Of a DNA stretch of 64,000 nt, positions 3,299-18,812 are shown in pieces (position 1 is the first letter of the stretch; the number at the start of each line of letters is the position of its first letter). The translations under genes were made by a program, and so were the position numbers. The notes under the pieces were generated by a model. It saw only the letters and a program-made list of their open reading frames with translations, was not told the DNA's origin and ran no database searches. This DNA comes from Halobacteriovorax sp. (GTDB taxonomy: Bacteria; Bdellovibrionota; Bacteriovoracia; Bacteriovoracales; Bacteriovoracaceae), in contig PBCC01000045.1 in assembly GCA_002716825.1 (NCBI GenBank), positions 1 to 64,000 of the forward strand, read 5' to 3'.

Positions 3299-4459
3299 AT
3301 GAATAGGTCAACTTTGTTACTATTTCTCTCTCTTTTATTTTCATGCCAGAGGGCTTTGGCTTTTGAAAAATATTTTCAAGGAGCCTATCTCAATATTCTA
3401 AGCGAGAAAATCCACACACTTTCGGTGAAAATGGGACCTAATACATTATTTAAAGGTGATCAAATAATTAAAAAACTGTGTCCTGTACCGAAGAAGGAGT
3501 GCGACATCAAGTTAGATGAATATTATTTCCTTACTGAACTTAAGGATAAAAGTTGTTATTCAAAAAAGAAAGATGAGACATGTATTATCTCAGGTTATAT
3601 AGTCGCGCAGCTTTTAAAGGAGAGATTACTCAAGAAAATGCCAATCGAAGGCTACAAAACGGATACACGATCGTTAAGTAGCGTCGGTTACAAATGGGGG
3701 AGGCTCTATAACAGAGAGGGGGATTTTAATACATTAACAGGCTCGAAGAGAGCAGGTAGCTATTACTCCCCCGGTTTTCCTTTGATATTTGGGCAAACTA
3801 GTATAGTTGAAGGCAAGTACAAGAGAGATGAGTGGGGAAATATCGAAAAGCCAAGAGGTCTGAAAATTATCAACCCCTTTGAGAATGATTCTTTGGAAAT
3901 GTGGTATCAGTCGGAATGGGTTTACGATAATATTTATCCAGTTGATAAAGGAGGGTTTACACTAAAGAAAGAGTTTGACTGCTCCAAGATAAAAATTAAT
4001 ACAAAAGATTATAAATACTTTGATTTCAAGGATGATTCAACTAATTTCGACATCACAAAAATCAATACAATTTGCCACGAACTGACTTATAAGATCTTTA
4101 AGTCTGAAAATGGTGTGCTATACACATACATAAAATCTAACTTTTACGACTCTGAATTTGAACATTCTCCTGAATATATTACAGAAGAAACTAGAGACAC
4201 AAATATCGGCATTCCTGCAGCTGAGTATCAAAAACTTCCTAGCGTTGTGGCAGCTTTTGAAGAGAGGGAGTTGTTTCCAGACCCTCAAAATCCTGAGAAG
4301 TATATTAACTATGTCCTTTTTCAAGAAATAGAAAACTCTGATAACGAAGAACAAAAGTGGAACAAATCGAGAGGGTTTCGTTTTTTAAGACATTTCCCAC
4401 TTAAAGATGCTGATCAGGGAAAATTAAGAAAGATAAAGCCTGTACTTGAATTTCACTAA
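3299..4459 (+). CDS. exported protein of unknown function, first of a tandem paralogous pair
   Basis: 386 residues with an N-terminal signal sequence; cleavage is likely after RALA, before FEKYF. LFSC at residues 12-15 could pass for a lipobox, but the paralogue conserves the later FEKYF boundary, which favours signal peptidase I. The first ~150 residues share long near-identical stretches with the next gene (HTLF-GDQIIKK, DEYY-LTEL, CIISGYIVAQL, MPIEGY, GY-WGRLYN) and carry four or more conserved Cys, suggesting disulfides in the periplasm or outside the cell. No catalytic motif is seen. It is probably in one operon with the coiled-coil protein and its paralogue. Confidence 0.75.
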   Translation: MNRSTLLLFLSLLFSCQRALAFEKYFQGAYLNILSEKIHTLSVKMGPNTLFKGDQIIKKLCPVPKKECDIKLDEYYFLTELKDKSCYSKKKDETCIISGYIVAQLLKERLLKKMPIEGYKTDTRSLSSVGYKWGRLYNREGDFNTLTGSKRAGSYYSPGFPLIFGQTSIVEGKYKRDEWGNIEKPRGLKIINPFENDSLEMWYQSEWVYDNIYPVDKGGFTLKKEFDCSKIKINTKDYKYFDFKDDSTNFDITKINTICHELTYKIFKSENGVLYTYIKSNFYDSEFEHSPEYITEETRDTNIGIPAAEYQKLPSVVAAFEERELFPDPQNPEKYINYVLFQEIENSDNEEQKWNKSRGFRFLRHFPLKDADQGKLRKIKPVLEFH

Positions 4460-4484
4460 ATGAAGAGACGGAAGAGGATGAACA

Positions 4485-5666
4485 ATGAGCATGAATAAGC
4501 TTATTCTCTTTATAATTTTAACAATTGCTTCAAATAATTGCTTTGCCTTTGAGAAATATTTCAAAGGATTTATTATTTACGTAGGAGGTGAAGCTCTGCA
4601 TCGATTTACTCAAGAAGGTACTGACGAAGTTCGTCCGCATACATTATTTAGCGGCGATCAAATAATCAAGAAGATCTGTCCCTCTGCTAAAAAAGAATGT
4701 TCTGTAAAGTCGGATGAGTATTATTACCTTACCGAGCTGCTTGATAAAAGTTGTCTTGACGAAAAAGAGAAATGCATTATTTCTGGATACATAGTAGCAC
4801 AGCTTCGAAAGGATATATTATTAAAACATATGCCCATTGAAGGTTATAATAACGATTCGCGCTTGCTGGGAACTATCGGATATACCTGGGGCAGGCTTTA
4901 TAATTTAAATGGAGAATTTATTGAGATAACAGAACCTAGTAAACATGTGGGAACCATGATGGGGCCTGTGAGTTTTATACAGCTATATGCAGAAAAAGGA
5001 GCGATTAAAGAGGGGGTGTACGATCCCAATAAAAGAGATGATTTCAATAATTTGCTTATTCCTAACTTCCTGAAGCTTTCAAACCCATTCAAAAATGATT
5101 CACTCGAAATGTGGTTTAATGCATCTTGGAAAACGTGGCCTTACAATACCTTTCATCATATCGATATAGGTGCCTTTGTTTTAAAAAAACATTATGACTG
5201 TTCTAAGATTAAGTTGAACGCTAAGAATTATAAATACTTCAAATCGGGAAGACCCGATGAAGTAAATCTGAATAATTTCTCTAAAGATTGTCACGACAGA
5301 ACTTTTAAAATAATCAAAGCAGAAGAAGGACTTCTTTATGCTGTGATTAAATCAAGTGTTTTCGATGAAGGATATGATCCTGATGCCAATAATTATTTTC
5401 CTAAGAAAACAGAGGATTACACTCGTCTAAAGATTAAATTAAAAGAATACAGAAAACTTCCCAATGTCATGGCAATATTTAACGAAAAGGAACTCTTTCC
5501 TGACTCAAATAATCCTAGAGAGAATATTGAATACCTACAGCTTCAAGAAGAAGAGAATTATTCTGCTGAACATATTGAATGGAAAAAGAAGCAGGTCAAG
5601 GACTTCACGTTTTTAGGTGGTTACTTACCAATAAAAGACGTAGATCAAAGCTCTATTAAGAAGTAA
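4485..5666 (+). CDS. exported protein of unknown function, second of a tandem paralogous pair
   Basis: 393 residues, starting at ATG 4485 with GAAGAGGA seven bases upstream; ATG 4491 is an alternative. A signal peptide ends near CFA, before FEKYF. The architecture and conserved Cys pattern match the preceding gene along the whole length, including a C-terminal segment with ELFPD, so the pair arose by tandem duplication. There is no recognisable enzyme motif. The gene is AT-rich like its neighbours, in keeping with a lineage-specific surface module. It ends 10 bp before the end of the convergent protease gene, with no clear terminator hairpin between them. Confidence 0.75.
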   Translation: MSMNKLILFIILTIASNNCFAFEKYFKGFIIYVGGEALHRFTQEGTDEVRPHTLFSGDQIIKKICPSAKKECSVKSDEYYYLTELLDKSCLDEKEKCIISGYIVAQLRKDILLKHMPIEGYNNDSRLLGTIGYTWGRLYNLNGEFIEITEPSKHVGTMMGPVSFIQLYAEKGAIKEGVYDPNKRDDFNNLLIPNFLKLSNPFKNDSLEMWFNASWKTWPYNTFHHIDIGAFVLKKHYDCSKIKLNAKNYKYFKSGRPDEVNLNNFSKDCHDRTFKIIKAEEGLLYAVIKSSVFDEGYDPDANNYFPKKTEDYTRLKIKLKEYRKLPNVMAIFNEKELFPDSNNPRENIEYLQLQEEENYSAEHIEWKKKQVKDFTFLGGYLPIKDVDQSSIKK

Positions 5667-7535: not shown

Positions 7536-7865
7536 ATGACGAAAATGATCATGGCCGCTATGGCACTTTTACTTACAACTTCGGCATTTGCCGATGACTT
7601 TATCTGCACGATGAAAGTGGGTCAGTTTTTAACTGAGACTGAATACGCACCTTACCGAGGACGTGAAGTTAATATTGTAATGGGTGAGTACTCGTGTAAC
7701 GGTGTCATCGATAATAATATTATTGTGACGACAACCTTGGTTTCTAATACCAATGGTGACACAAAGTCAGTATCAGATAGAGCTTCTAGTAAAGTTACAA
7801 TGACGACTCTTGATATTTGGGGTGATGGCCAGGAAAGACTTGAATGCGAGTGTGGGCTTAATTAG
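7536..7865 (+). CDS. small secreted protein of unknown function
   Basis: 109 residues starting at ATG 7536, preceded by a strong AAGGAG at 7522-7527. The signal peptide ends TSAFA-DD near residue 19. The mature part is about 90 residues with four Cys (FICTM, YSCNG, CECG), likely forming periplasmic disulfides, and a beta-rich pattern. No family is recognised. It is divergent from the MipA/OmpV gene, and its stop overlaps the convergent scoB stop by 4 nt (TTAG at 7862-7865). Confidence 0.7.
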   Translation: MTKMIMAAMALLLTTSAFADDFICTMKVGQFLTETEYAPYRGREVNIVMGEYSCNGVIDNNIIVTTTLVSNTNGDTKSVSDRASSKVTMTTLDIWGDGQERLECECGLN

Positions 7866-8440
7866 CCTGCACTCACCAGGGTATCGAAGCCTTTACCATT
7901 GGGCTTAAAAACACCTCGTTCAGTAACGACGAGATCGACAACACCAACTCCGGTAAGGGGAAGTGTGCACTGCTCGACGAGCTTAACGTTTCCTTCTTTA
8001 TCGGCGTGAGACATCATGATGATGACTTGCTTGGCACCGTTAACTAAATCCATGGCACCGCCCATGCCTGTAACTTTCTTTCCAGGCACCATCCAATTGG
8101 CAAGGTTTCCTTTGGCATCGACTTCCATTCCACCTAGAACGCAAAAGTCGATATGACCGCCGCGAATCATGCCAAAGCTTAGGGCGCTATCAAAGAAAGA
8201 GGCTCCCGGCTTAATACTAATAGTCTCTTTGCCAGCATTAATTAGAGTAGGTGAGACTTCATCTTTAGCGGGACGGCCCTTAACGCCTAGGACACCATTT
8301 TCAGAGTGAATCATGATGTCCATCTCTGGTGTAATTCGCGAGGCCACCATGGTGGGCATGCCGATGCCTAAGTTGACGCTTGATCCGGGAGTAAAAAGTT
8401 TGACCACTTGATCGGCCATTTGTTCCTTAGACCAGCTCAT
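7862..8440 (-). CDS. scoB: 3-oxoacid CoA-transferase, subunit B, shortened C-terminus
   Basis: 192 residues. Subunit B of the SCOT-type family I CoA-transferases, which move CoA from succinyl-CoA or acetyl-CoA to a 3-oxoacid. The catalytic Glu is E47 in HSENGVLG; the GIGMPT loop, GGHIDFCVLGGMEVD and W-VPGK-V-GMGGAMDLV blocks are all present. Bacterial homologues run to roughly 207-218 residues and end with an acidic helix and a T-A-F-type tail; here the protein stops after FDTLVSAG, where it meets the convergent gene. The start overlaps the scoA stop (ATGA). It is the last gene of the operon. The natural substrate may not be acetoacetate, given the neighbouring aminotransferases. Confidence 0.88.
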   Translation of the reverse strand: MSWSKEQMADQVVKLFTPGSSVNLGIGMPTMVASRITPEMDIMIHSENGVLGVKGRPAKDEVSPTLINAGKETISIKPGASFFDSALSFGMIRGGHIDFCVLGGMEVDAKGNLANWMVPGKKVTGMGGAMDLVNGAKQVIIMMSHADKEGNVKLVEQCTLPLTGVGVVDLVVTERGVFKPNGKGFDTLVSAG

Positions 8441-9135
8441 GCGTCTTCTCCATCAATTTTTAAAAACTCGATGTCGTTTTTATAGTTTTTTCCTTGGAAG
8501 ATATGCTGAACAAAGAGTCCGGGAACATGCACATCTTCGGCCGGGATGTCTCCAAGCTCGACCAGTTCCTCGACTTCAGCAATTGTAACTTTTGCCGCCA
8601 TGGCCATGAGTGGCGAGAAGTTTTTGGCGGTTTCTTTAAACCAAAGATTGCCGTATTTATCGCCTTTTTGTGCTTTAATAATGGCGTAGTCAGCGTGAAG
8701 AGGAAGTTCCAAAATACATGGCTTATCAAAGTTTTTAACTTCTTTGCCCTCAGCGATCAATGTTCCATAGCCTGTTGGAGTATAGAAACCGCGAATCCCC
8801 ATACCGGCAGCGCGAATGCGCTCTGAAAAAGTTCCTTGTGGAACTAGTTCAACTTCAATTTCATTATTCATCATCTGTTTTTCAAGGTCGGGGTTACCAC
8901 CAACATAAGAGCAATAAGCTTTTTTAATTTTCTTTTGTACGAGAATCTTAACTAAGCCGCGTCCCGAGTTTCCAATATTATTAGAAATGACCGTTAGATC
9001 TTTAACTGGCAGTTGCTCCAATGCATCGATACAGTTTTCGGCAATACCACACAAACCAAAGCCACCACTCATAAGAGTCATGCCGCTTTTAAAGCCGCTT
9101 AAGGCTTCATTGGCATCTTTACATACTTTTTTCAC
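8437..9135 (-). CDS. scoA: 3-oxoacid CoA-transferase, subunit A
   Basis: 232 residues, normal length for subunit A. Recognised by the N-terminal GFGLCGIAENCI loop, NNIGNSGRGL, the SYVGGNP segment and E-VPQGT-SERIRAAG--I-GFYTPTGYGT. The start is GTG 9135 with AAAGGTG upstream, inside the 3' end of the aminotransferase gene (17-nt overlap), so expression is translationally coupled. It pairs with the B subunit just downstream (ATGA overlap). Cytoplasmic enzyme subunit for CoA transfer to a keto acid; the position after an aminotransferase suggests that the keto acid is a transamination product (inference). Confidence 0.92.
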   Translation of the reverse strand: MKKVCKDANEALSGFKSGMTLMSGGFGLCGIAENCIDALEQLPVKDLTVISNNIGNSGRGLVKILVQKKIKKAYCSYVGGNPDLEKQMMNNEIEVELVPQGTFSERIRAAGMGIRGFYTPTGYGTLIAEGKEVKNFDKPCILELPLHADYAIIKAQKGDKYGNLWFKETAKNFSPLMAMAAKVTIAEVEELVELGDIPAEDVHVPGLFVQHIFQGKNYKNDIEFLKIDGEDA

Positions 9136-10318
9136 AGATCACCTTTATAAGTTTATCTAGGCCATCGCTTAGTTCGGATGGTTGCATCGTCATAGCGGGA
9201 GAAAGAATTGCGTCACCCTCGTGGTTATAAACAAATAGGCCGACCTTTTGATATTCTTCAAAAGTGATCTTGCCTTTGTGTTCAATAATTCCCAGTAAAC
9301 CGAGTTTTCTAATCGCCTTGATGTTTTGATGATTCTCAATCTGATTGAGTTTTTGATTAAAGATCTCAATATTTTCTTTGAGTCGCACATGAAAGGCTGG
9401 GTCTTCGATAAGCTTAAAAACGCCACTGAGTGCTGCAAGACCTAGGGGATGGCCGTAGTTAGTCAGGCCACAGGCGAGAATATTGTCTTCAAAGTGTTTG
9501 GCAATCCACGGCGCAGTCCAAACCGCGCCAAAGGGAGCAAAACCGCCGGTGATCGCCTTGGCCATACAAACGACATCGGGCTTTACCGGGTAATGGTGAA
9601 AACCCATGGCCTTGCCGGTTCTATAAAAACCCGTTACGACTTCATCGACAATTAACTTGATATCAAACTCATCGCAAAGGTCTTGGATGCCTTGCCACCA
9701 TGAAGTGGGTAGAACCCATACACCATTACCACCTGTCACTGTTTCAATAATAAAAGCAGCGATATTTTCAGGGCCGTGTTGGCTGATAAGATCGCGCGTC
9801 TTGGTTAGGTCTGGATCATCACTTGGCTCAGGGATTCTAATCGTGTCGCTTCCCTCAGGAAAAAATGGATCGTGACGCCAGTCTCCGGTGGCCGCAAGCG
9901 CTCCCATGGTTGCGCCGTGATAAGAGCGCTTTCTGGCGAGGATTTTATGCTTTCCAGTGGCAAGCTTTATCATCTTGAGTGCTTTTTCTACAGACTCTGC
10001 CCCCGAGACTGTCCAAAAAACTTTACCTTCAAATCCAACTAAATTGATGAGCTTTTGTGCCATTTCATCTTTTAATTGAAATTGGGCCTTAGGTGAACAA
10101 AGTGATAAATTGCTAGAGATTTGTTCTTGCATGCTCTTAAGGATGACTGGGTTATTTAAACCAAAGCCAGCTTGAAAACTGATGCCCGATAAATCAAGTA
10201 GCTCCTGGCCGTCTTCTAAAATCATAGTGCAGTCACGATTTGAAGCAATAGGGAGTGTGGCCACTGCGTTTTGTTTGGACCAAGAAATATAATAAGGTAG
10301 GCTCATCTTTGTCGTCAT
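9119..10318 (-). CDS. class III PLP-dependent aminotransferase
   Basis: 399 residues, typical for the family. The fold-type I features are intact: SGAESVEKALK for phosphate binding, RSYHGATMGA, E192-T-V-T-GG, the PLP pyridine-binding D225 in IVDEVVTGF, and Schiff-base K254 in CMAKAITGG. Members transfer amino groups from omega-amino acids, polyamines or lysine-type substrates; specificity cannot be read here. Its ATG overlaps the stop of the C45 gene by 1 nt (TGATG), and its 3' end overlaps scoA, placing it centrally in the tightly coupled operon. Confidence 0.9.
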   Translation of the reverse strand: MTTKMSLPYYISWSKQNAVATLPIASNRDCTMILEDGQELLDLSGISFQAGFGLNNPVILKSMQEQISSNLSLCSPKAQFQLKDEMAQKLINLVGFEGKVFWTVSGAESVEKALKMIKLATGKHKILARKRSYHGATMGALAATGDWRHDPFFPEGSDTIRIPEPSDDPDLTKTRDLISQHGPENIAAFIIETVTGGNGVWVLPTSWWQGIQDLCDEFDIKLIVDEVVTGFYRTGKAMGFHHYPVKPDVVCMAKAITGGFAPFGAVWTAPWIAKHFEDNILACGLTNYGHPLGLAALSGVFKLIEDPAFHVRLKENIEIFNQKLNQIENHQNIKAIRKLGLLGIIEHKGKITFEEYQKVGLFVYNHEGDAILSPAMTMQPSELSDGLDKLIKVICEKSM

Positions 10319-11412
10319 CAGGATTTCAAAATGAAATGACCTGCCTCCAGATGAAAGTCGACTGACTTATAGTTTCTATCTTCCTCAGGACAGCCGCGCC
10401 AAAAGCGACCTCGTCCGGCCGTCAGATCGGCAATCCCACCACCGCAAGTAAATGATGGGTCTTGTGCACCCGATTCAAAATGCGAACATAAAGCCTTAGG
10501 GTAGCCATCGTGTGATGTGAGTAGAGAGAACATATCTTCTAGATCGCGAACCTTTGGAACAAGCTTTTCTAAAAGGTTCCATCTAATATGGGTTGTTGAT
10601 GAACTACTCGTTGCATCTTCATGCTCTTGAACTTTTGGGCCAAGACAATGATTGGTGTGAAAAGCGTGGCCAACACTTCCAGCATCAACATGACCGACGC
10701 GCTCAAAAAGCTTAGGCGTCACTTCCCAGTGTTCACCTTGCGCTTCATCGGACACGATATAGTTATGGCCTGAAGTTACCGGGGCATCTTCAAGATATTT
10801 TCTGGCGTTAGTTACTGACTTTTCTTTCAAGAGTCTTCGAACATATAAGGGCCAGATAATGCCGGCGCGCGCGTTGGTGGTATTAATATTATTCACACCG
10901 ACAAGTAGATTGTGAGTATTGATTCCCATAAGTCCTAAGCAGCCAACCAGTGAAAGGCTAAGCATCTCAGGTGCATTTTCTGTTGCTGGAGCGTGAATGA
11001 GGCAAAGGTAGTCTTTAGCACTTTTATGCATGTCCCACGTTTGACCTGAAAGCGTGTGAGACTTATTTAGCACATACACAGTCGAGCAGCCCTCTTCGGG
11101 TAATTGCAGGTCTCTAAAATCGGTATAATTATTTAAAATAACCAAATCAAGTCTTGTGAGATTACTCCCATCAACAATTCCCTGCATCTCTTCCATCAGC
11201 GCAGGGGCGTAGGCAAAGCTCGCATCCCATTGAGCGGTAGCGAGTTCTTCAAGCTTTGAACGAAGGCGCGGATTTTTGGCCAGCATCAGCTCACGTCTAA
11301 TCTCGGCCAGCTCAGTGATGCCCTCGCGAAACATTTCACCATGCATGCGTCCCCATTCAAGAGGGGATGAGCCAGTATATTTGATGATAGGAAAGCCTTG
11401 ATCAGTACTCAT
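10318..11412 (-). CDS. C45-family peptidase / acyl-CoA:6-APA acyltransferase-like Ntn hydrolase
   Basis: 364 residues from ATG 11412, which overlaps the preceding stop (ATGA); an upstream in-frame start at 11433 would lie inside the previous gene. Catalytic Cys is C109 in EEG-CSTV. In this family autocleavage at Gly-Cys exposes the Cys as the N-terminal nucleophile. Other conserved parts are GRMHGEMFREG near the N-terminus, G-TWDMH, and GINTHNLLVGVNN. Relatives hydrolyse or transfer N-acyl groups, including acyl-CoA-dependent penicillin acyltransferase. No signal peptide, so probably cytoplasmic. Together with the operon's CoA-transferase, an acyl-CoA-using acyltransferase role is attractive but unproven. 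Confidence 0.85.
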   Translation of the reverse strand: MSTDQGFPIIKYTGSSPLEWGRMHGEMFREGITELAEIRRELMLAKNPRLRSKLEELATAQWDASFAYAPALMEEMQGIVDGSNLTRLDLVILNNYTDFRDLQLPEEGCSTVYVLNKSHTLSGQTWDMHKSAKDYLCLIHAPATENAPEMLSLSLVGCLGLMGINTHNLLVGVNNINTTNARAGIIWPLYVRRLLKEKSVTNARKYLEDAPVTSGHNYIVSDEAQGEHWEVTPKLFERVGHVDAGSVGHAFHTNHCLGPKVQEHEDATSSSSTTHIRWNLLEKLVPKVRDLEDMFSLLTSHDGYPKALCSHFESGAQDPSFTCGGGIADLTAGRGRFWRGCPEEDRNYKSVDFHLEAGHFILKS

Positions 11413-14400
11413 GCGTTTTCCTCCCAGGCCCACTCCTTAACAAATTCCGCCATGGCATCAAAACTGGCACAAAGAATATGGCGATCGCCTTCTTCTTTGA
11501 ACAGTCTTCGAAGTGAGTAGGGCAGTGTTCCTGTGATCCAGCCGCGTGGACCCGAGAGTCCAAACTGTAGACCGATATGGTTATCGAGCATCTTTTTAAG
11601 TTTCGATTCAAAGTCGCGAGCAAGCTTTATGTAGTCGTCGTGATGAGTGATGACTCGTTCCATTCCACGTACATAAGAAGCAAAAGAGAACTCATCACCA
11701 TCCCATGTGGAGATCATCATGAGCGGCTTATCGACAAATTTTTCACGGCGAACAAAGGCCATGCCGGCCTGGCCGCCAAGAAACAGCATGCTGGCATCAG
11801 GAGTGATGGCGCTATCGTTACAGGCAAAGTAGTTCTTGCTATTGAAACGATAAGACTGAGCTCCAGTTTCATTGAAAACTAAGTTGATGCCTTTTTCTTT
11901 GGTTAGTCTTCTAAGCTCTATTAAGAACTTATAAGGAACCGGCTCCATGGTTTTTTGTGGTAGCGGCTCAATCCAAATGGCGAGGTACTTATTTTTATTA
12001 GTCAGCTCTTCAATTTGCTCCAAGATCTGCTCGTGATTGGCAGCAACTGGTGTATCGAGATGATCGACTTTGAAATAAGGATCATTGTGATCACTCAATG
12101 ACCTTGAAAGAAACGAGCCTTTACCAAATGAATGCAGCTTAAAAGTTAGCATACGGTTAGTGTATTTATCAGACACATACCACAAACTTTTTGCCACTTT
12201 ATCAACTGCTTCAGATTGTCCAGAGCAGCTGTAACCGTGCCTTAGTTCTTTAGGCATTTGATTCGAGATCTTTTCAACGTTGGTTAAAAAGTCGTGTGAA
12301 ACAAAGTTTGAAAGACAGATTTTATTGTTAACCGTTACCAACGATTTTCTCATCCATTCTTTATCTAGTGTTGAGTGACCGATATGAGAATCAATCGCAC
12401 TATGAAGGGATAGCGGTGGTTTGCTCCATTTTAAAGGGCAAGTATAGTAAACCACATCGCGGTAGCGTTCGAAGTCTGGGTAGTCTTCTTTTAAATAATT
12501 GAGTTCATACGCTCCAAGCGAGAGATTGATCGACAGCATGCTGGCGGCCATACGGTCGCGGTTTCTGCCTTGAATTCGATTGAAGTCTTTGGCACTTGCC
12601 CATGCTGTCAGTGCGTACTTTAAAAAACGTCCTAAACCGCCGCCTTGGTAATCATTGGCAACAGTTGTATCGATAACGTAAATGGATTTTTCATCTTCAA
12701 AGTAAGGATCAACTCTTAATCCTCTATCGAGTGGATGGCGCTTAAGCGGAGAGGCGAAAACGATTGCGACGAGTTCGCCTTCATTTTCTACTGCCAGTGC
12801 CAGGCCAAACGGGTCATGAGCTACTTTTTCAAACTTTTCGATATCAGTTTGTCTGGCAGGTTCATAGGTGCTTTCTTGTAGTTTTTGGATGCGGTCGCGG
12901 TAATTGGTGTAATTAGATTCATCAACCGAGACAAGGTCGTGAGTTGTAGCTTCTTTGAACAGTTTACAGATCTTTGTCCAAGCATCGTTTGAATCTGGGG
13001 TGTGAGAATTATAATTGTCGAGCTTAAGATCTAGAAGTAGACGGTGCCAGTCATAAAGATTACTGGTGCCGCGCTCTTTTGTTTCGACACTACTTGGGCA
13101 AGGAGCTTCTTTGCCATTAAAAATTTTATCGCAAAGAACATCCATTTCATTAAACAAGAAGTCTAAATCATCGGAGGAAAATGCCGTATTTAATCTAAAG
13201 CGCAGCGTACGATCGCCGGCCGGATAATAGAGTAGTCCGTGCTTAAAGCGTTCAGCGATAAACTTATTGCAAAGCTCATTGCTTGGAGTTTCTACCGCAA
13301 AGGCTAGACCCATAACTCTTGGCCTAGTGAGATGAGCAGGGTATTTGGCAATCAGTGCATTAAGGCGAGCTCTGGTATCTTCTTCAATACTCAAGATGCG
13401 CTCTTGCATTTGATCCAGGGCAATTCCGTGCAGGTAGCCGCGTATCACACTGGCAACTTGGAATTGATCGGGAGTCTTATCCATTTTTTTATGAGAAAGA
13501 ACCATTCCAACTTGAGCTTTCTTGGCGCAAGTGACGTAATCAGGATTAAGTTGTGAACCATCTAGGTCTTTCATCTTAAGCGCGTGATGCCAGAAGAACT
13601 CACGACCGAGGTGAAAGCCGGTTTGGACTTCATCGTGAATCACTTTGACGTTAAAGCTTCGAGACATAAGTATGAGCGCCGTGTGGAAGCGATCTGAACT
13701 ATAACGATCGCCGCCTTCACATTGCATGGTCTCAGCGATGACGGCAAAGATATTGCCTGTACATAACTTAGTTCTCACTTCTTTAAGAGCTTCGACTTCA
13801 AGTTTCAAAACGGGGTCTTTGAGCCACTTGGCAGGAACAGTGAAATTCTTCTTACTGGCATTATCCCAAAACTTTCTCCAGCCTTCCGGAATAGGTTGAT
13901 GAATTTCATCACCTGGAAGTTCAGGAAAGGGGCAATATTCAGTTAGAAACTCTGGCCATTCAAAGGGTTCACGCTTTGATTTGTTCCAAGTTGATGAGAG
14001 AGTCACCATCATACGACCGTGAAAAGATCCTTCAAAAGCTAGAACCTTATTGGCCCACTTATTACCACGTTCTTTATAGGCATAACCTAGTGCTGTTTCA
14101 TTGGCTTCAGCGCCAGAATTTACGTAGGTTAAAAATAAGTTTTCCCATTTAGTTTTTCTTTTCAAAAACTTGAGTAGAGCGCGGTGGACTTGCTTGAAAA
14201 TTTTAGTGTTTGGATTATTAGTCCAAGCTTCAAGAAAATGCGCAACTCCCATAAAGACTGATGGGTTAAAACCCAAGCCTAGCGTGGCAATTTGGCTGGC
14301 GGCGTCCATCATATAATGGGTCTTCCCGTCGCCGCCTTCAATGGCCATATAAGGGCCTTCACTTTTTTCTAGCTCTGTGAGGTAAGCTTTTTTCTCGGCA

Positions 14401-14483
14401 GGGATGAGTTCGGCATCATAAAAAGGTGCCAGGCGCGCAGCTGCGTGCTTTTCATCCTGAGAGTTAATTAATGGCAATTTCAT
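11409..14483 (-). CDS. three-domain fusion: class III aminotransferase, GNAT acetyltransferase, degenerate aminotransferase
   Basis: 1024 residues, no signal peptide. Residues ~1-460 form a class III aminotransferase with NSGAEANETALG (122-133), D284 in IHDEVQTGF and the Schiff-base Lys at 321/322 (CAKKAQ). Residues ~530-680 form a GNAT domain with acetyl-CoA loop DYQGGGLGRF (611-620). Residues ~690-1020 look like a second aminotransferase: SGQSEAVDKV (754-763), WIEPLPQ (837-843), then LVFNETGAQ, where the PLP-binding Asp is Asn, and PDASMLFLGGQAG, where the PLP Lys is missing. The last domain is therefore probably not a PLP enzyme but a partner or regulatory half. Start overlaps the ligase stop by 4 nt and stop overlaps the C45 start by 4 nt. 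Domain calls are strong for parts 1 and 2 and moderate for part 3. Confidence 0.85.
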   Translation of the reverse strand: MKLPLINSQDEKHAAARLAPFYDAELIPAEKKAYLTELEKSEGPYMAIEGGDGKTHYMMDAASQIATLGLGFNPSVFMGVAHFLEAWTNNPNTKIFKQVHRALLKFLKRKTKWENLFLTYVNSGAEANETALGYAYKERGNKWANKVLAFEGSFHGRMMVTLSSTWNKSKREPFEWPEFLTEYCPFPELPGDEIHQPIPEGWRKFWDNASKKNFTVPAKWLKDPVLKLEVEALKEVRTKLCTGNIFAVIAETMQCEGGDRYSSDRFHTALILMSRSFNVKVIHDEVQTGFHLGREFFWHHALKMKDLDGSQLNPDYVTCAKKAQVGMVLSHKKMDKTPDQFQVASVIRGYLHGIALDQMQERILSIEEDTRARLNALIAKYPAHLTRPRVMGLAFAVETPSNELCNKFIAERFKHGLLYYPAGDRTLRFRLNTAFSSDDLDFLFNEMDVLCDKIFNGKEAPCPSSVETKERGTSNLYDWHRLLLDLKLDNYNSHTPDSNDAWTKICKLFKEATTHDLVSVDESNYTNYRDRIQKLQESTYEPARQTDIEKFEKVAHDPFGLALAVENEGELVAIVFASPLKRHPLDRGLRVDPYFEDEKSIYVIDTTVANDYQGGGLGRFLKYALTAWASAKDFNRIQGRNRDRMAASMLSINLSLGAYELNYLKEDYPDFERYRDVVYYTCPLKWSKPPLSLHSAIDSHIGHSTLDKEWMRKSLVTVNNKICLSNFVSHDFLTNVEKISNQMPKELRHGYSCSGQSEAVDKVAKSLWYVSDKYTNRMLTFKLHSFGKGSFLSRSLSDHNDPYFKVDHLDTPVAANHEQILEQIEELTNKNKYLAIWIEPLPQKTMEPVPYKFLIELRRLTKEKGINLVFNETGAQSYRFNSKNYFACNDSAITPDASMLFLGGQAGMAFVRREKFVDKPLMMISTWDGDEFSFASYVRGMERVITHHDDYIKLARDFESKLKKMLDNHIGLQFGLSGPRGWITGTLPYSLRRLFKEEGDRHILCASFDAMAEFVKEWAWEENA

Positions 14484-15493
14484 ATAGTCCTCGCGTGAGT
14501 GGCGATCAAATATTCTAAAAAGGTTTTATAGTCGTGGCCGTTTTCTTTCATCATCATAGGAAACATGGAAATCTTCGTATGGCCTGGAAACGTATTGGGT
14601 TCATTTAGATAGATCTTTCCATCGTCAGTATAGAAGAAGTCGATGCGGGCTAGATCTTTAAGCTTTAAGCCGCGAAAAGCTTTCATGGCATACTGTCTAA
14701 TTTGTTCAACCACGTCACTTGGCAAGCCTTCTGCCCTAGGTAGGGTTTGTGTTTTGCTCGTTTCTGAATATTTTTCTTCGTAGCTATAAAACTTGCTGGG
14801 ACAAATAATCTCACCAGGCGCACTACACTCAAGTTTTCCTTGATACTCGTAAACTGAAACTTCTAGCTCGCGCCCTTTAACTGTGCGCTCTAATAAGACA
14901 TAGGGTGAAAAAGTAAAAGCGTCTTTAATGGCCTGATCAAGTTCAGCCATTTTTGTCACGTGATAGCAGCCGACACTACTTCCTTGGCTTGAAGCTTTGA
15001 TGAATAGGTCTTGCCCTTCATCAGAAAAAAACTTTCTAGCCTTACTTAAGCTCTCTTCATCTATTTCTGATAGAAATAAGTAAGGAGTATTGGGAACTTC
15101 AAGAGCATCCAGCCAAAGCTTGGTTGAAACTTTATTAAAACAGATACGACTGGCTTCAGGAGCTGCGCCAAGATAGGGCAGACCCATCATCTCAAAGACT
15201 CCTTGAATATCTCCGGTCTCTCCAGGAGGTCCGTGAATACAAGGAATAGCATAGTTTAAAACAACACTTTGATCGGTCTCAGGCCAAACTAGTTCACCGG
15301 CACGACGAAGCTCACAGCGATTACCTTCAAGGTCACGCCTGGTTCCATCTTTTGTTATCTCCACGTAGTGGGGAGTAATGCCGTCAATCTTCTTTAGTTG
15401 ATCTAAAATGAATTTAGCTGAAATTAATGAAATCTCATGCTCGGTTCCACCACCGCCACAAATTAACAGAACGTTTTTGTTTTGAACGGGCAT
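14480..15493 (-). CDS. D-alanine--D-alanine ligase family ATP-grasp enzyme
   Basis: 337 residues. Ddl-family motifs are all present: TEHEISLISA (residues 17-26), HGPPGETGDIQG (87-98), KASSQGSSVG, GRELEVSV, FYSYEEKYSE, ARIDFF and YLNEPNTFPGHTKISMFP. The enzyme couples two amino acids using ATP. True Ddl enzymes usually have NE(I/V)NT(L/M)PG, while this one has NEPNTFPG, and it sits first in a metabolic operon rather than in a murein cluster. It may therefore be a paralogue with a different dipeptide product, though cell-wall Ddl cannot be excluded. The start is 26 nt after thrS, and the stop overlaps the next ATG (ATGA). Confidence 0.85.
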   Translation of the reverse strand: MPVQNKNVLLICGGGGTEHEISLISAKFILDQLKKIDGITPHYVEITKDGTRRDLEGNRCELRRAGELVWPETDQSVVLNYAIPCIHGPPGETGDIQGVFEMMGLPYLGAAPEASRICFNKVSTKLWLDALEVPNTPYLFLSEIDEESLSKARKFFSDEGQDLFIKASSQGSSVGCYHVTKMAELDQAIKDAFTFSPYVLLERTVKGRELEVSVYEYQGKLECSAPGEIICPSKFYSYEEKYSETSKTQTLPRAEGLPSDVVEQIRQYAMKAFRGLKLKDLARIDFFYTDDGKIYLNEPNTFPGHTKISMFPMMMKENGHDYKTFLEYLIATHARTI

Positions 15494-15510: not shown

Positions 15511-15538
15511 CCCCAAAGTTTATCGTAGTGCTTTGGGG
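15511..15538 (-). repeat. perfect 8-bp inverted repeat around the thrS stop codon
   Basis: CCCCAAAG at 15511-15518 and CTTTGGGG at 15531-15538 are perfect complements with a 12-nt loop that contains the thrS TAA. In the minus-strand transcript this gives a stable hairpin between thrS and the ligase operon. No T-run follows, so it is not a classical intrinsic terminator; it could be a processing or stabilising element, or a partial attenuator. Confidence 0.6.
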
Positions 15539-17277
15539 ACTCGCTCCTGGTTAAGTTCGCTAAAGAGAGACTTAAGATCTTGAGTACTCATGTCCTGACT
15601 ATCTCTAGAACCATAGGCGCGAATCGAAACTGAATCTGTTTCAACTTCGCGGTCTCCGATAACAATCATATAAGGGACTTTAGACTTTTGAATCTGACGA
15701 GTCTTGTAGCCCATCGATTCATTGCGATTATCAACTCGAATACGTAGTCCAAGATCGCGAAGGCTGGCCGCTAGTGTTGAGGCGTAAGCTTCGTGGGTTT
15801 CATTGTTCACCGGAACAATAATGGCTTGCTCGGGAGCAATCCAGAATGGAAAAGCTGCTCCGACGTGTTCAATATAGACACCAATGAAACGCTCAAGCGA
15901 GCCAAGTAGCGCTCTGTGAATAACGACGGGACGCTCTTCCTTGCCTTCTTGGTTGGTGAAAGTCAGGTCAAAGCGCTCAGGCAGTTGGAAGTCGAGTTGA
16001 ATTGTTCCAAGTTGATAATAGCGACCAAGGGCATCGGCAATCTCAACATCAATCTTTGGGCCATAGAAAGCGCCGTCGCCTTCTTTTATATGATAAGCGT
16101 GGCCTGAGGCATCGAGTGCGTCTTTAAGTGCGCCTTCAGCAATATCCCAAGTGGCATCATCACCCGATTTATCTTCAGGGCGAGTTGAAAGATTCACTTT
16201 GATTCCGGTAAAGCCGAAGTGCTCATAACAGATAAAAAACATACGCATGAGATCTTGAATCTCGCCTTGAATCTTATCCATAGGTAAGAAAATATGGGCG
16301 TCATCTTGGCAGAAAGTTCTCACTCGTGTCAGTCCTGCTACAGCACCAGCTTTTTCATAGCGGTGAAGCCTGCCAAAGTCGGCATAGCGTAGCGGCAGGT
16401 CGCGGTAACTGTACTTATAGTGCTTAAACATAAGCATATGACATGGACAGTTCATCGGCTTCACGGCGTACTCGCGCTCATCAATATTTGAGAAGTACAT
16501 ATTCTCTTTGTAGTGAGCGTAGTGACCTGAAGTATGCCAAAGATCTGAATCCAAAATTTGCGGCGTAATCACTTCATCGTAGCCAAATTTAGTGTAAAGG
16601 CGACGCATGAATGAAACGAGTTCATTATAAAGAAAAGCACCTTTAGGCATAAAAAACGGAGAGGCCGGAGCAACTTGTTCAAAGTGGAAAAGCTCTAGCT
16701 CTTTACCCAGTTTTCTGTGGTCGCGCCTTTTTGCTTCTTCGAGCATTTTTAGGTGATCTTGTAATTCTTCCTTAGAGGCGAAACAAACGGCATACACCCG
16801 TTGGAGCATTTGATTTTTTTCGCTACCGCGCCAGTAAGCACCAGCAACATGAGTTAGCTTGAAGCTAAAAGGAAGATTATTAGTGTTTTCAACGTGAGGA
16901 CCACGACACAGGTCGATGAAGTCACCTTGGGTAAAGCAAGAGATCTCTTCCCCGGCCGGAATGTCTTCGATCAACTCCACTTTAAGCTTTTGGTTTTGCT
17001 CAGCAAAAAACTTAAGCGCTTCATCTCTGGACATCACCTTGCGCTCGATTGGGAGCTTTTGCTTGATGATTTCTTTCATCTTCTTTTCGATATTCTTAAG
17101 ATCAGCTTCACTTAGACGGTGTTCCATTTCCACGTCATAGTAAAATCCGTGGTCAATGACCGGGCCTACGCCGAACTCGACATGATCTTTAGGAAAGAGA
17201 CGAGTGATGGCCTGGGCCATAAGATGGGCCATGGAGTGTCTAATAGTGTCAATTTTGTATTCTTGTGATTGTGCCAC
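15520..17277 (-). CDS. thrS: threonyl-tRNA synthetase lacking the N-terminal TGS domain
   Basis: 585 residues from GTG 17277; TTG 17283 is the only longer choice, as an in-frame TAA directly precedes it. GGG nine bases before the GTG is a weak ribosome-binding site. The N2 editing domain is present (HSMAHLMAQA, then DLCRGPHVENT), followed by the class II catalytic core with MNCPCHMLMFKH, motif 2 (GRLHRYEKAGAV, RTFCQDDAHIF), motif 3 (HRALLGSLERFIG) and the C-terminal anticodon-binding domain. Standard bacterial ThrRS is ~640 residues with an N-terminal TGS domain; here that ~60-residue domain is absent and cannot be recovered upstream. It charges tRNA-Thr in the cytoplasm and is probably essential. 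Confidence 0.95.
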   Translation of the reverse strand: MAQSQEYKIDTIRHSMAHLMAQAITRLFPKDHVEFGVGPVIDHGFYYDVEMEHRLSEADLKNIEKKMKEIIKQKLPIERKVMSRDEALKFFAEQNQKLKVELIEDIPAGEEISCFTQGDFIDLCRGPHVENTNNLPFSFKLTHVAGAYWRGSEKNQMLQRVYAVCFASKEELQDHLKMLEEAKRRDHRKLGKELELFHFEQVAPASPFFMPKGAFLYNELVSFMRRLYTKFGYDEVITPQILDSDLWHTSGHYAHYKENMYFSNIDEREYAVKPMNCPCHMLMFKHYKYSYRDLPLRYADFGRLHRYEKAGAVAGLTRVRTFCQDDAHIFLPMDKIQGEIQDLMRMFFICYEHFGFTGIKVNLSTRPEDKSGDDATWDIAEGALKDALDASGHAYHIKEGDGAFYGPKIDVEIADALGRYYQLGTIQLDFQLPERFDLTFTNQEGKEERPVVIHRALLGSLERFIGVYIEHVGAAFPFWIAPEQAIIVPVNNETHEAYASTLAASLRDLGLRIRVDNRNESMGYKTRQIQKSKVPYMIVIGDREVETDSVSIRAYGSRDSQDMSTQDLKSLFSELNQERVPKALR

Positions 17278-17315
17278 GTGCAATTACCCGGAAAAGTGGT
17301 CTAACTACCTAAAAT

Positions 17316-17406: not shown

Positions 17407-17434
17407 TTGACCTAGAGTCACGCACCATGATAAG
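17407..17434 (+). promoter_or_regulatory. candidate promoter for the TPR/winged-helix regulator
   Basis: TTGACC at 17407-17412, a 16-nt spacer and GATAAG at 17429-17434. If used, the ATG at 17427 would lie inside the promoter, which supports the downstream GTG 17505 as the translation start. The region is divergent from thrS. Confidence 0.4.
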
Positions 17435-17504
17435 ACCAAGGCTAAGCTCTCAATACCCTGTAAAGGGATGGGAAGCTCGTGCCACCACTGCGGGGGAATT
17501 GAAC

Positions 17505-18812
17505 GTGATAAATGAAGAAATGGCAGGATTACAAAGTACTCAGGCCGCAAACATGAAAGCGAATCATATCGAAAGCTCGTTAGCTTTTCTTGAACGTAGC
17601 GAAGATACTTTGCAACTTTCAGCAGATGCCACAAATCAAGCGGCCCTTGGTCGATCCTTCTACCAATTAGGAAAGCTTCATTATGATAAAGCCGACTTAA
17701 TTAGAGCTGAGGAAAACTTTCTTCTCTCTCTAAAGTGCGGCGAAAGACCACGCGATATCTTCTCCATGCTCAAAGTTTACGGATTCCTTATTCGTATCGC
17801 TTCTGAAAGATTGGAAAACACTAAAGCTTCTCTTTATATTAAAGAGGCTGAAATCCTAGTTGAAGAGATGACGGCTAATCTTGCTAGTCTCTCTGCCGAA
17901 TACTTTTATAACGTAGGTATCGTTAAGAACTACGGATCGAAATTCGATGAAGCTCGTCAAAACTTTGAACTAGCCTATAAGCGCTCTAAAGAAGAAAACG
18001 AGCCAGAACTGCTTGCTAAATGTCTTTTGGCCCTGGCCATGAATGCCACAAATCGCCAAGACAACACAGCCGCTCGCGATTACCTGACTCAGCTCAACCA
18101 GTTACTTACAATTATCACTAAAAACTACCTTCTAGGGGCGATGTATCACCACCTAGCAAAAGTAGAATTAGCCGATGAGAATTTCGAGCTTGCGCTTGAA
18201 AACCTCGATCGCGCTAACCGTATTCTTAATGAGAAGAAGTGTTGGAACCTTTATGGCTACGTACTTCTAGCTAAAGGTATGGCCCACAAATTCTCAGGCA
18301 AGTATGAACTTGCTCTTGAGTATTTCGGACTTGCTCTAGACACGGTTGATAAGCGTGTCTTTAAGCGCCTCACTGATATGCTTCAAAAAGAAGTCGACGA
18401 TGTTAACGATTCAAGCGTTGATATTTTCCTCGATCGCGTAAACCGTAAGGTTAAAGAGCGCTCGCTTGGAACAATCGACTTCAAACACCGCTTTGTTCTA
18501 TTGGAAATCCTTTTCCTTTTGGCCAAAAATCCTGGTGTTTACTACGATAAAGAACAACTTGCTAAGATGATCTGGAAAGATGAGTACAACCCATTAATCC
18601 ACGATAAGCTTATCTATACTAGTGTTTCGCGTTTACGTAAGTTGATTGAACCTAAGGGTGATAAAAACGATAAGTCTGATAAGCGTAAATATGTTATTCG
18701 CGGCAAAGATGGTTATACTTTTAACCCTCACGTTAATATTCGTTTCCATAACGAATCTCGCGGACAAAATATTGCAGCCATTGGAAACGTGGAACTTAGT
18801 TCACCCGTCTAG
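17505..18812 (+). CDS. TPR-repeat protein with C-terminal OmpR/PhoB-type winged helix
   Basis: About 435 residues from GTG 17505, which follows GGGGGA by 7-8 nt. An in-frame ATG exists at 17427, but its first 26 residues do not look like protein and overlap a likely promoter. About seven helix pairs of TPR type cover most of the protein (for example ALGRSFYQLGKLHYDKADLI). A winged-helix domain near the C-terminus is marked by VSRLRKLIEPKG followed by YVIRGKDGYTF, as in OmpR/SARP effector domains. There is no receiver domain or signal peptide. It is likely a cytoplasmic transcription factor sensing a partner through its TPRs. The next gene starts 6 nt after its stop. Confidence 0.82.
   Translation: MINEEMAGLQSTQAANMKANHIESSLAFLERSEDTLQLSADATNQAALGRSFYQLGKLHYDKADLIRAEENFLLSLKCGERPRDIFSMLKVYGFLIRIASERLENTKASLYIKEAEILVEEMTANLASLSAEYFYNVGIVKNYGSKFDEARQNFELAYKRSKEENEPELLAKCLLALAMNATNRQDNTAARDYLTQLNQLLTIITKNYLLGAMYHHLAKVELADENFELALENLDRANRILNEKKCWNLYGYVLLAKGMAHKFSGKYELALEYFGLALDTVDKRVFKRLTDMLQKEVDDVNDSSVDIFLDRVNRKVKERSLGTIDFKHRFVLLEILFLLAKNPGVYYDKEQLAKMIWKDEYNPLIHDKLIYTSVSRLRKLIEPKGDKNDKSDKRKYVIRGKDGYTFNPHVNIRFHNESRGQNIAAIGNVELSSPV

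Follow-up and report, generated by a model that had tools for sequence, protein, structure and literature searches.

A conserved gene cassette with an aminotransferase-GNAT fusion enzyme in Halobacteriovorax, probably for beta-lysine catabolism

Beta-lysine degradation in Pseudomonas and Bacillus proceeds through N6-acetyl-beta-lysine, 6-acetamido-3-oxohexanoate, 4-acetamidobutyryl-CoA, gamma-aminobutyrate (GABA), and succinate semialdehyde. The arginine succinyltransferase (AST) pathway, comprising AstA, AstC, AstD, and AstE, acylates its substrate, removes the terminal amine, oxidizes the product, and then deacylates it. Lysine fermentation by KamA, KamDE, Kdd, Kce, and Kal starts at lysine 2,3-aminomutase (PMC3149608), and the Bacillus kam locus belonging to beta-lysine degradation is on record (PMC4428206). 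We analyzed a window of 64,000 nt from Halobacteriovorax sp. (contig PBCC01000045.1, positions 1 to 64,000, of assembly GCA_002716825.1, a draft genome of 2.6 Mb that is 74% complete), and we describe here a five-gene cassette, FUS-C45-AT2-CtfA-CtfB, whose first gene encodes a fusion of an active aminotransferase, a GNAT domain, and a dead aminotransferase half. Judged from sequence, the cassette probably serves beta-lysine catabolism, in some order of steps. The first-pass annotation of this DNA had proposed the synthesis of an acylated dipeptide or, in reverse, the degradation of an N-acyl amino acid; we favor the degradative alternative, in the form of beta-lysine catabolism.

The locus is read on the minus strand from position 15493 to position 7862, through LIG, FUS, C45, AT2, CtfA, and CtfB. 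All five junctions overlap, by 4, 4, 1, 17, and 4 nt in this order as read from the DNA, with ATGA shared at LIG/FUS, FUS/C45, and CtfA/CtfB, TGATG at C45/AT2, and the 17-nt overlap at AT2/CtfA. The FUS/C45 value is counted from the C45 ATG at 11412 and not from the upstream GTG at 11433, to which the open reading frame extends. The coordinates and the 1- to 17-nt overlaps of the first-pass annotation were therefore right, and its family calls were borne out by the profile scores given below.

We compared the genome with relatives from the Bacteriovoracaceae, Halobacteriovorax, and other Bdellovibrionota. FUS was found in 17 of the 37 genomes of the family, its partners being present wherever the contig allows, and the order LIG-FUS-C45-AT2-CtfA-CtfB is retained in nearly all family cassette loci of sufficient length. 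Within the family, FUS proteins are mostly 40 to 51% identical to the window copy, and a gene order conserved at such divergence is far beyond chance. A scan of 85,462 species, which amounted to the neighborhood survey of the fusion protein that the annotation had suggested, placed further FUS genes in Bdellovibrionota and others in Pirellulales and in many Myxococcota; the arrangement was mostly FUS-C45-AT2-CtfA-CtfB. FUS co-occurs with C45, AT2, and CtfAB in three phyla; the five genes form a real, conserved cassette, and to this extent the earlier idea of a coupled operon serving one pathway has held up. CtfB is its conserved last gene, and at one locus (L094) CtfA and CtfB are fused. A minimal pair, FUS and C45, is seen at L096 and in family f7. 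The f7 loci (L060:7482-12727 and L061:3-9326) encode an N-terminally extended FUS with C45 and no AT2, and a divergent CoA-transferase pair adjoins them in L061. The annotators knew of no operon with such a composition; the literature that we searched likewise contained no paper describing one and no description of the multidomain fusion.

The substrate is suggested by KamA, a lysine 2,3-aminomutase homologue that follows CtfA in both Pirellulales contigs reaching far enough (L082 and L125, which are divergent clusters). Within the family, a close KamA (60 to 68% identity) was present in 17/17 genomes with FUS versus 3/20 without it (Fisher p 9e-8, a value inflated, like the next one, by shared ancestry of the genomes). 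Outside the family, 20 of the 24 FUS-bearing genomes have it. Among Myxococcota, for which we took an even sample of 141 genomes and detected FUS by its GNAT profile (a single-sequence search was too insensitive), a close KamA accompanied the FUS GNAT domain in 9/11 genomes versus 38/130 genomes lacking the domain (p 9e-4). The KamA of the window's own genome (G000:C7:12315-13622; L229:9324-10685) is 64% identical to the cassette-linked KamA. Both aspartates that form part of the lysine site in 2a5h are retained in KamA.

Two of the three family members with KamA and no FUS are informative in this regard: in G025, the neighbors of KamA are Kdd, a KamC-like ATPase, lysine 5,6-aminomutase, and Kce, and in G019, they are Kdd and a KamC-like gene. 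These neighbors are evidence that this KamA subfamily acts on lysine, and because known lysine-fermentation genes stand beside the same KamA there, KamA is served either by that pathway or by the cassette. The cassette loci and KamA loci of FUS-bearing genomes contained no Kdd, 5,6-aminomutase, or Kce. Clostridial-type lysine fermentation genes were located in relatives from within the family, at L243:9149-19000 (Kdd, KamC-like, lysine 5,6-aminomutase, and Kce) and L240:8672-14052 (Kdd and KamC-like). In G011 (L236:9098-11269), a close KamA has neither FUS nor Kdd nearby and is followed by a BtpA/SgcQ family gene.

FUS (11409 to 14483; 1024 residues; PF00202 and PF00583) consists of an aminotransferase (residues ∼1 to 460), a GNAT domain (∼500 to 700), and a dead aminotransferase half (∼700 to 1024). 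The first two parts had been recognized in the first-pass annotation; the third, a C-terminal aminotransferase-like half without the lysine that binds pyridoxal phosphate (PLP), had been missed. By both sequence and fold, the N-terminal aminotransferase is nearest to lysine epsilon-aminotransferase (LAT), although its score of 109 bits against the L-lysine 6-transaminase model TIGR03251 (cut-off, 520.8) makes it LAT-like and outside the equivalog. K321 at the PLP position is invariant in 54/54 sequences, and no lysine occupies the aligned position of the C-terminal half in any of the 54. That half has an invariant Ser925-Thr926-Trp927 (STW) in 54/54, with Gly929-Asp930 also invariant. The segment aligns with Asn328-Ser329-Thr330-Trp331 of LAT, a loop that presumably reaches into the active site of the partner subunit, and the live half of FUS has Arg348-Gly349-Tyr350 in its place. 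Because the dead half keeps an invariant loop that the live half has lost, the alignment suggests that FUS is a built-in heterodimer in which the loop of the dead half would complete the live one. On this reading, a tandem aminotransferase may have sacrificed one of its active sites, retaining from that half only the loop needed to complete the other site.

The full-length AlphaFold2 model of FUS has a pLDDT of 93.1 and a pTM of 0.94. The GNAT domain, modeled with a pLDDT of 93.5, has RimI and phosphinothricin acetyltransferases as its best PDB matches; this is a general RimI/PAT-like fold, there was no useful NCBIfam match to indicate a substrate, and the domain on its own gave no AblB-family match. 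Many Myxococcota FUS proteins have an additional N-terminal aldehyde dehydrogenase of the AstD type, which at L094, L116, and L133 is a separate gene beside FUS. FUS-linked dehydrogenases scored 342 to 407 bits with AstD models and 200 to 230 bits with succinate semialdehyde dehydrogenase (SSADH) models; at 342 to 393 bits against the TIGR03240 cut-off of 579, AstD is their nearest family, and they are not AstD itself. The AstD-like dehydrogenase of the window's genome, assigned at the level of its family only, is unlinked to the cassette. As a co-occurrence marker within the family, the enzyme was uninformative, being present with and without FUS.

C45 (10318 to 11412) belongs to the autoproteolytic N-terminal nucleophile (Ntn) acyltransferases/amidohydrolases: it has the Gly-Cys processing site of NF040521, in an EEGCS motif with a conserved C116, and scores 178.8 bits against that model's cut-off of 85. 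It matches acyl-CoA:6-aminopenicillanic acid acyltransferase (2x1d), and we infer that it acts as a deacylase or amidohydrolase. AT2 (9119 to 10318; PF00202, 218 bits) is a class III aminotransferase with a conserved K254, and its best PDB match is taurine:2-oxoglutarate aminotransferase. Taurine is a beta-amino acid analogue, and AT2 would remove the 3(beta)-amino group. CtfA (8437 to 9135; TIGR02429, 248.5 bits versus a cut-off of 128.5) and CtfB (7862 to 8440; TIGR02428, 263.7 bits versus 243.6) both exceed the cut-offs for the A (PcaI/ScoA) and B (PcaJ/ScoB) subunits of 3-oxoacid CoA-transferase. CtfA orthologues of at least 68% identity occur in exactly the 17 FUS-bearing genomes of the family; elsewhere in the family there is at most a 37 to 53% paralogue, whereas both kinds are carried by G003 and G023. 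The CoA-transferase is dedicated to the cassette. A CoA-transferase serving only acetoacetate metabolism as a housekeeping enzyme, which the first-pass annotation had allowed for, is made unlikely, because the copy in the cassette forms an orthologue group of its own that occurs only together with FUS and because G003 and G023 have both kinds.

From the gene content, its conservation, the domain architecture, and the co-occurrence with KamA, we would deduce substrates, order, and direction as follows. KamA, encoded elsewhere in the genome, would convert lysine to beta-lysine (3,6-diaminohexanoate), whose 3-amino group would be acetylated by the GNAT domain of FUS. The LAT-like half of FUS would then convert the 6-amino group to an aldehyde, the acetyl group preventing cyclization, and the AstD-type dehydrogenase, fused to FUS in Myxococcota and unlinked here, would yield N-acetyl-3-aminoadipate. 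Deacetylation by C45 would give 3-aminoadipate, which AT2 would convert to 3-oxoadipate; CtfAB would form 3-oxoadipyl-CoA, and a thiolase would cleave it to acetyl-CoA and succinyl-CoA. This AST-like order is favored because the Myxococcota chain joins dehydrogenase, aminotransferase, and GNAT domain, as for consecutive steps; because the linked dehydrogenases fit AstD models far better than SSADH models; because gene order matches reaction order; and because the minimal pair of FUS and C45 fits a C45 that acts on the FUS product. We consider beta-lysine catabolism in some order probable and this route its best explanation, with a chance close to even, at most, for the exact sequence of steps. 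More tentatively, and with somewhat less confidence, the whole may constitute an undescribed aerobic pathway from lysine through beta-lysine to 3-oxoadipate with AST logic, employing a single-chain internal heterodimer of live and dead aminotransferases with GNAT between them and, in Myxococcota, a fused aldehyde dehydrogenase.

Several observations weigh against this route. In the window's family, KamA lies apart from the cassette, exceeds the cut-off only of the broader KamA family model TIGR00238, and scores 287 and 274 bits against the TIGR03820 equivalog cut-off of 525; the statistics of its co-occurrence carry the ancestry effect noted above. Four distant FUS-bearing genomes (G062, G063, G074, and G079) have no close KamA, and at least G079 (L126) nevertheless has the full cassette. 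The AstD-like dehydrogenase of the window's genome is also present in relatives without FUS, and pig GABA transaminase resembles the aminotransferase of FUS almost as closely as LAT does. Finally, the f7 pair has no close KamA and adjoins dapF (L060) or lies near dapA/dapB (L061), and such pairs may serve another substrate too.

The same enzymes could instead follow the order of Barker (Pseudomonas) and the Bacillus Yod proteins, through acetyl-beta-lysine and GABA. The GNAT domain would form N6-acetyl-beta-lysine, AT2 would form 6-acetamido-3-oxohexanoate, and CtfAB would form its CoA ester; a thiolase would release 4-acetamidobutyryl-CoA, C45 would be a deacetylase-thiolesterase, the FUS aminotransferase would be the GABA transaminase, and the dehydrogenase would be SSADH. 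This order draws on the same KamA evidence and accounts for every activity. C45 relatives act on amides and thioesters alike, which suits it, as do the similarity of FUS to GABA transaminase and the placement of CtfA nearest to succinyl-CoA:3-ketoacid CoA-transferases. However, the linked or fused dehydrogenases are of the AstD and not the SSADH type, one chain would combine nonconsecutive steps (GNAT and GABA transaminase), the FUS and C45 minimal pairs would make little sense, and the GNAT domain lacks the AblB match. An active-site arginine was of no help in separating GABA transaminase from LAT, since the FHGR arginine is common to both. We regard this order as the less likely of the two.

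It is less probable still that KamA co-occurrence reflects shared ancestry only and that the cassette acts on ornithine, diaminopimelate, alpha-lysine, or another diamine acid. The dap neighbors of the f7 pairs and the four FUS-bearing genomes without a close KamA would fit such a substrate, but KamA adjoins the cassette in Pirellulales, and lysine-fermentation genes replace the cassette in two of the KamA-bearing relatives that lack FUS. As to the f7 loci, the pair as a replacement for DapD was rejected: both f7 genomes have DapD homologues, and the pair is not needed for that step.

A synthetic role, in making an acetylated beta-lysine osmolyte or a metabolite containing beta-lysine, is improbable. 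Methanogens and halophiles are known to use acetyl-beta-lysine as an osmolyte (PMC2412884, PMC1224877), and several FUS-bearing hosts are named Halobacteriovorax, yet such a synthesis would require neither the two aminotransferases nor the CoA-transferase and the aldehyde dehydrogenase, and the record titles of several FUS-bearing genomes give a groundwater origin.

LIG (14480 to 15493), which lies transcriptionally upstream of the cassette, had been counted among the pathway enzymes in the first-pass annotation. Most members of the family that lack FUS have a LIG-like protein (42 to 59% identity). We inspected eight of these genomes, in which thrS and LIG are paired and keep their neighbors on the TPR and rimP sides although the cassette is missing. 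LIG is missing from the Myxococcota and Pirellulales cassettes. Its score of 346 bits exceeds the D-alanine--D-alanine ligase equivalog cut-off of NF002527 (310), making it the sole Ddl-like protein found above it; two others scanned in the genome fall below. Because relatives lacking FUS keep thrS-LIG and LIG exceeds this cut-off, it is very probably a housekeeping cell-wall D-Ala-D-Ala ligase outside the pathway, and we rejected it as a pathway enzyme. Hardly any credence is left for a route in which LIG joins amino acids, C45 acylates the dipeptide, and the CoA-transferase supplies the acyl-CoA: LIG is translationally coupled to FUS and precedes it in nearly all family cassette loci, but its retention beside thrS without FUS, its absence from the cassettes of other phyla, and its equivalog score all speak against it, and with a housekeeping LIG the idea of acylated-dipeptide synthesis is therefore removed.

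The cassette sits behind a preexisting thrS-ddl pair. The threonine--tRNA ligase gene thrS (15520 to 17283, minus strand; TIGR00418, 695 bits versus a cut-off of 383.7) ends 26 nt before the LIG start and is presumed to be the first gene of the transcript. An Rfam search for riboswitch control gave three tRNAs and no other family, and promoter and terminator predictions were no more numerous than in shuffled sequence. Divergent from thrS throughout the family is a conserved gene (17427 to 18812) whose product is rich in TPRs, has a C terminus that apparently binds DNA, and gives no NCBIfam match. At 3299 to 5666, a pair of neighboring genes, apparently a tandem duplication, encodes similar secreted proteins of 386 and 393 aa. 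Elsewhere in the same genome (L062; G000:C40, 4211-13401), another dense cluster has the look of a pathway for modifying peptides or amines. It encodes a 697-aa tandem double Ddl-type ATP-grasp protein and a GNAT-nitrilase fusion, together with a DoeB-like deacetylase, a RimK ligase, and a deoxyhypusine synthase-like protein.

If correct, the proposed route would define a way of burning lysine for predatory and related bacteria, explain a divergent lysine aminomutase subfamily in three phyla, and give the FUS fusion a function. Compared with described systems, it shares its start with lysine fermentation; in two relatives of the window's genome, genes of that pathway stand next to a KamA from the same subfamily. 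Unlike that pathway, the cassette relies on acetylation, two aminotransferases, and a CoA-transferase, with no 5,6-aminomutase, Kdd, or Kce nearby. The AST pathway offers the same logic and an AstD-family dehydrogenase, but here GNAT stands for AstA and C45 for AstE, the substrate differs, and the product goes onward to a CoA ester. The active half of FUS has its nearest relative in LAT of Mycobacterium tuberculosis (Rv3290c), with FHGR and EGGD motifs in common; LAT is a homodimer, whereas in FUS a single chain contains both halves, with GNAT between. C45 shares the Ntn fold family and Gly-Cys autoprocessing site of acyl-CoA:6-aminopenicillanic acid acyltransferase (family C45) but is a bacterial pathway enzyme and putative amidohydrolase. 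With Bacillus kam/yod and Pseudomonas beta-lysine degradation, the common set is KamA, a GNAT, a class III aminotransferase, CoA-transferase subunits A and B, and a deacylase. The cassette differs in that its GNAT is fused between two aminotransferase halves, its deacylase is C45 and not M20-type, and an AstD-type dehydrogenase is linked. Most likely, it represents a novel form of beta-lysine catabolism that employs an unusual fusion enzyme.

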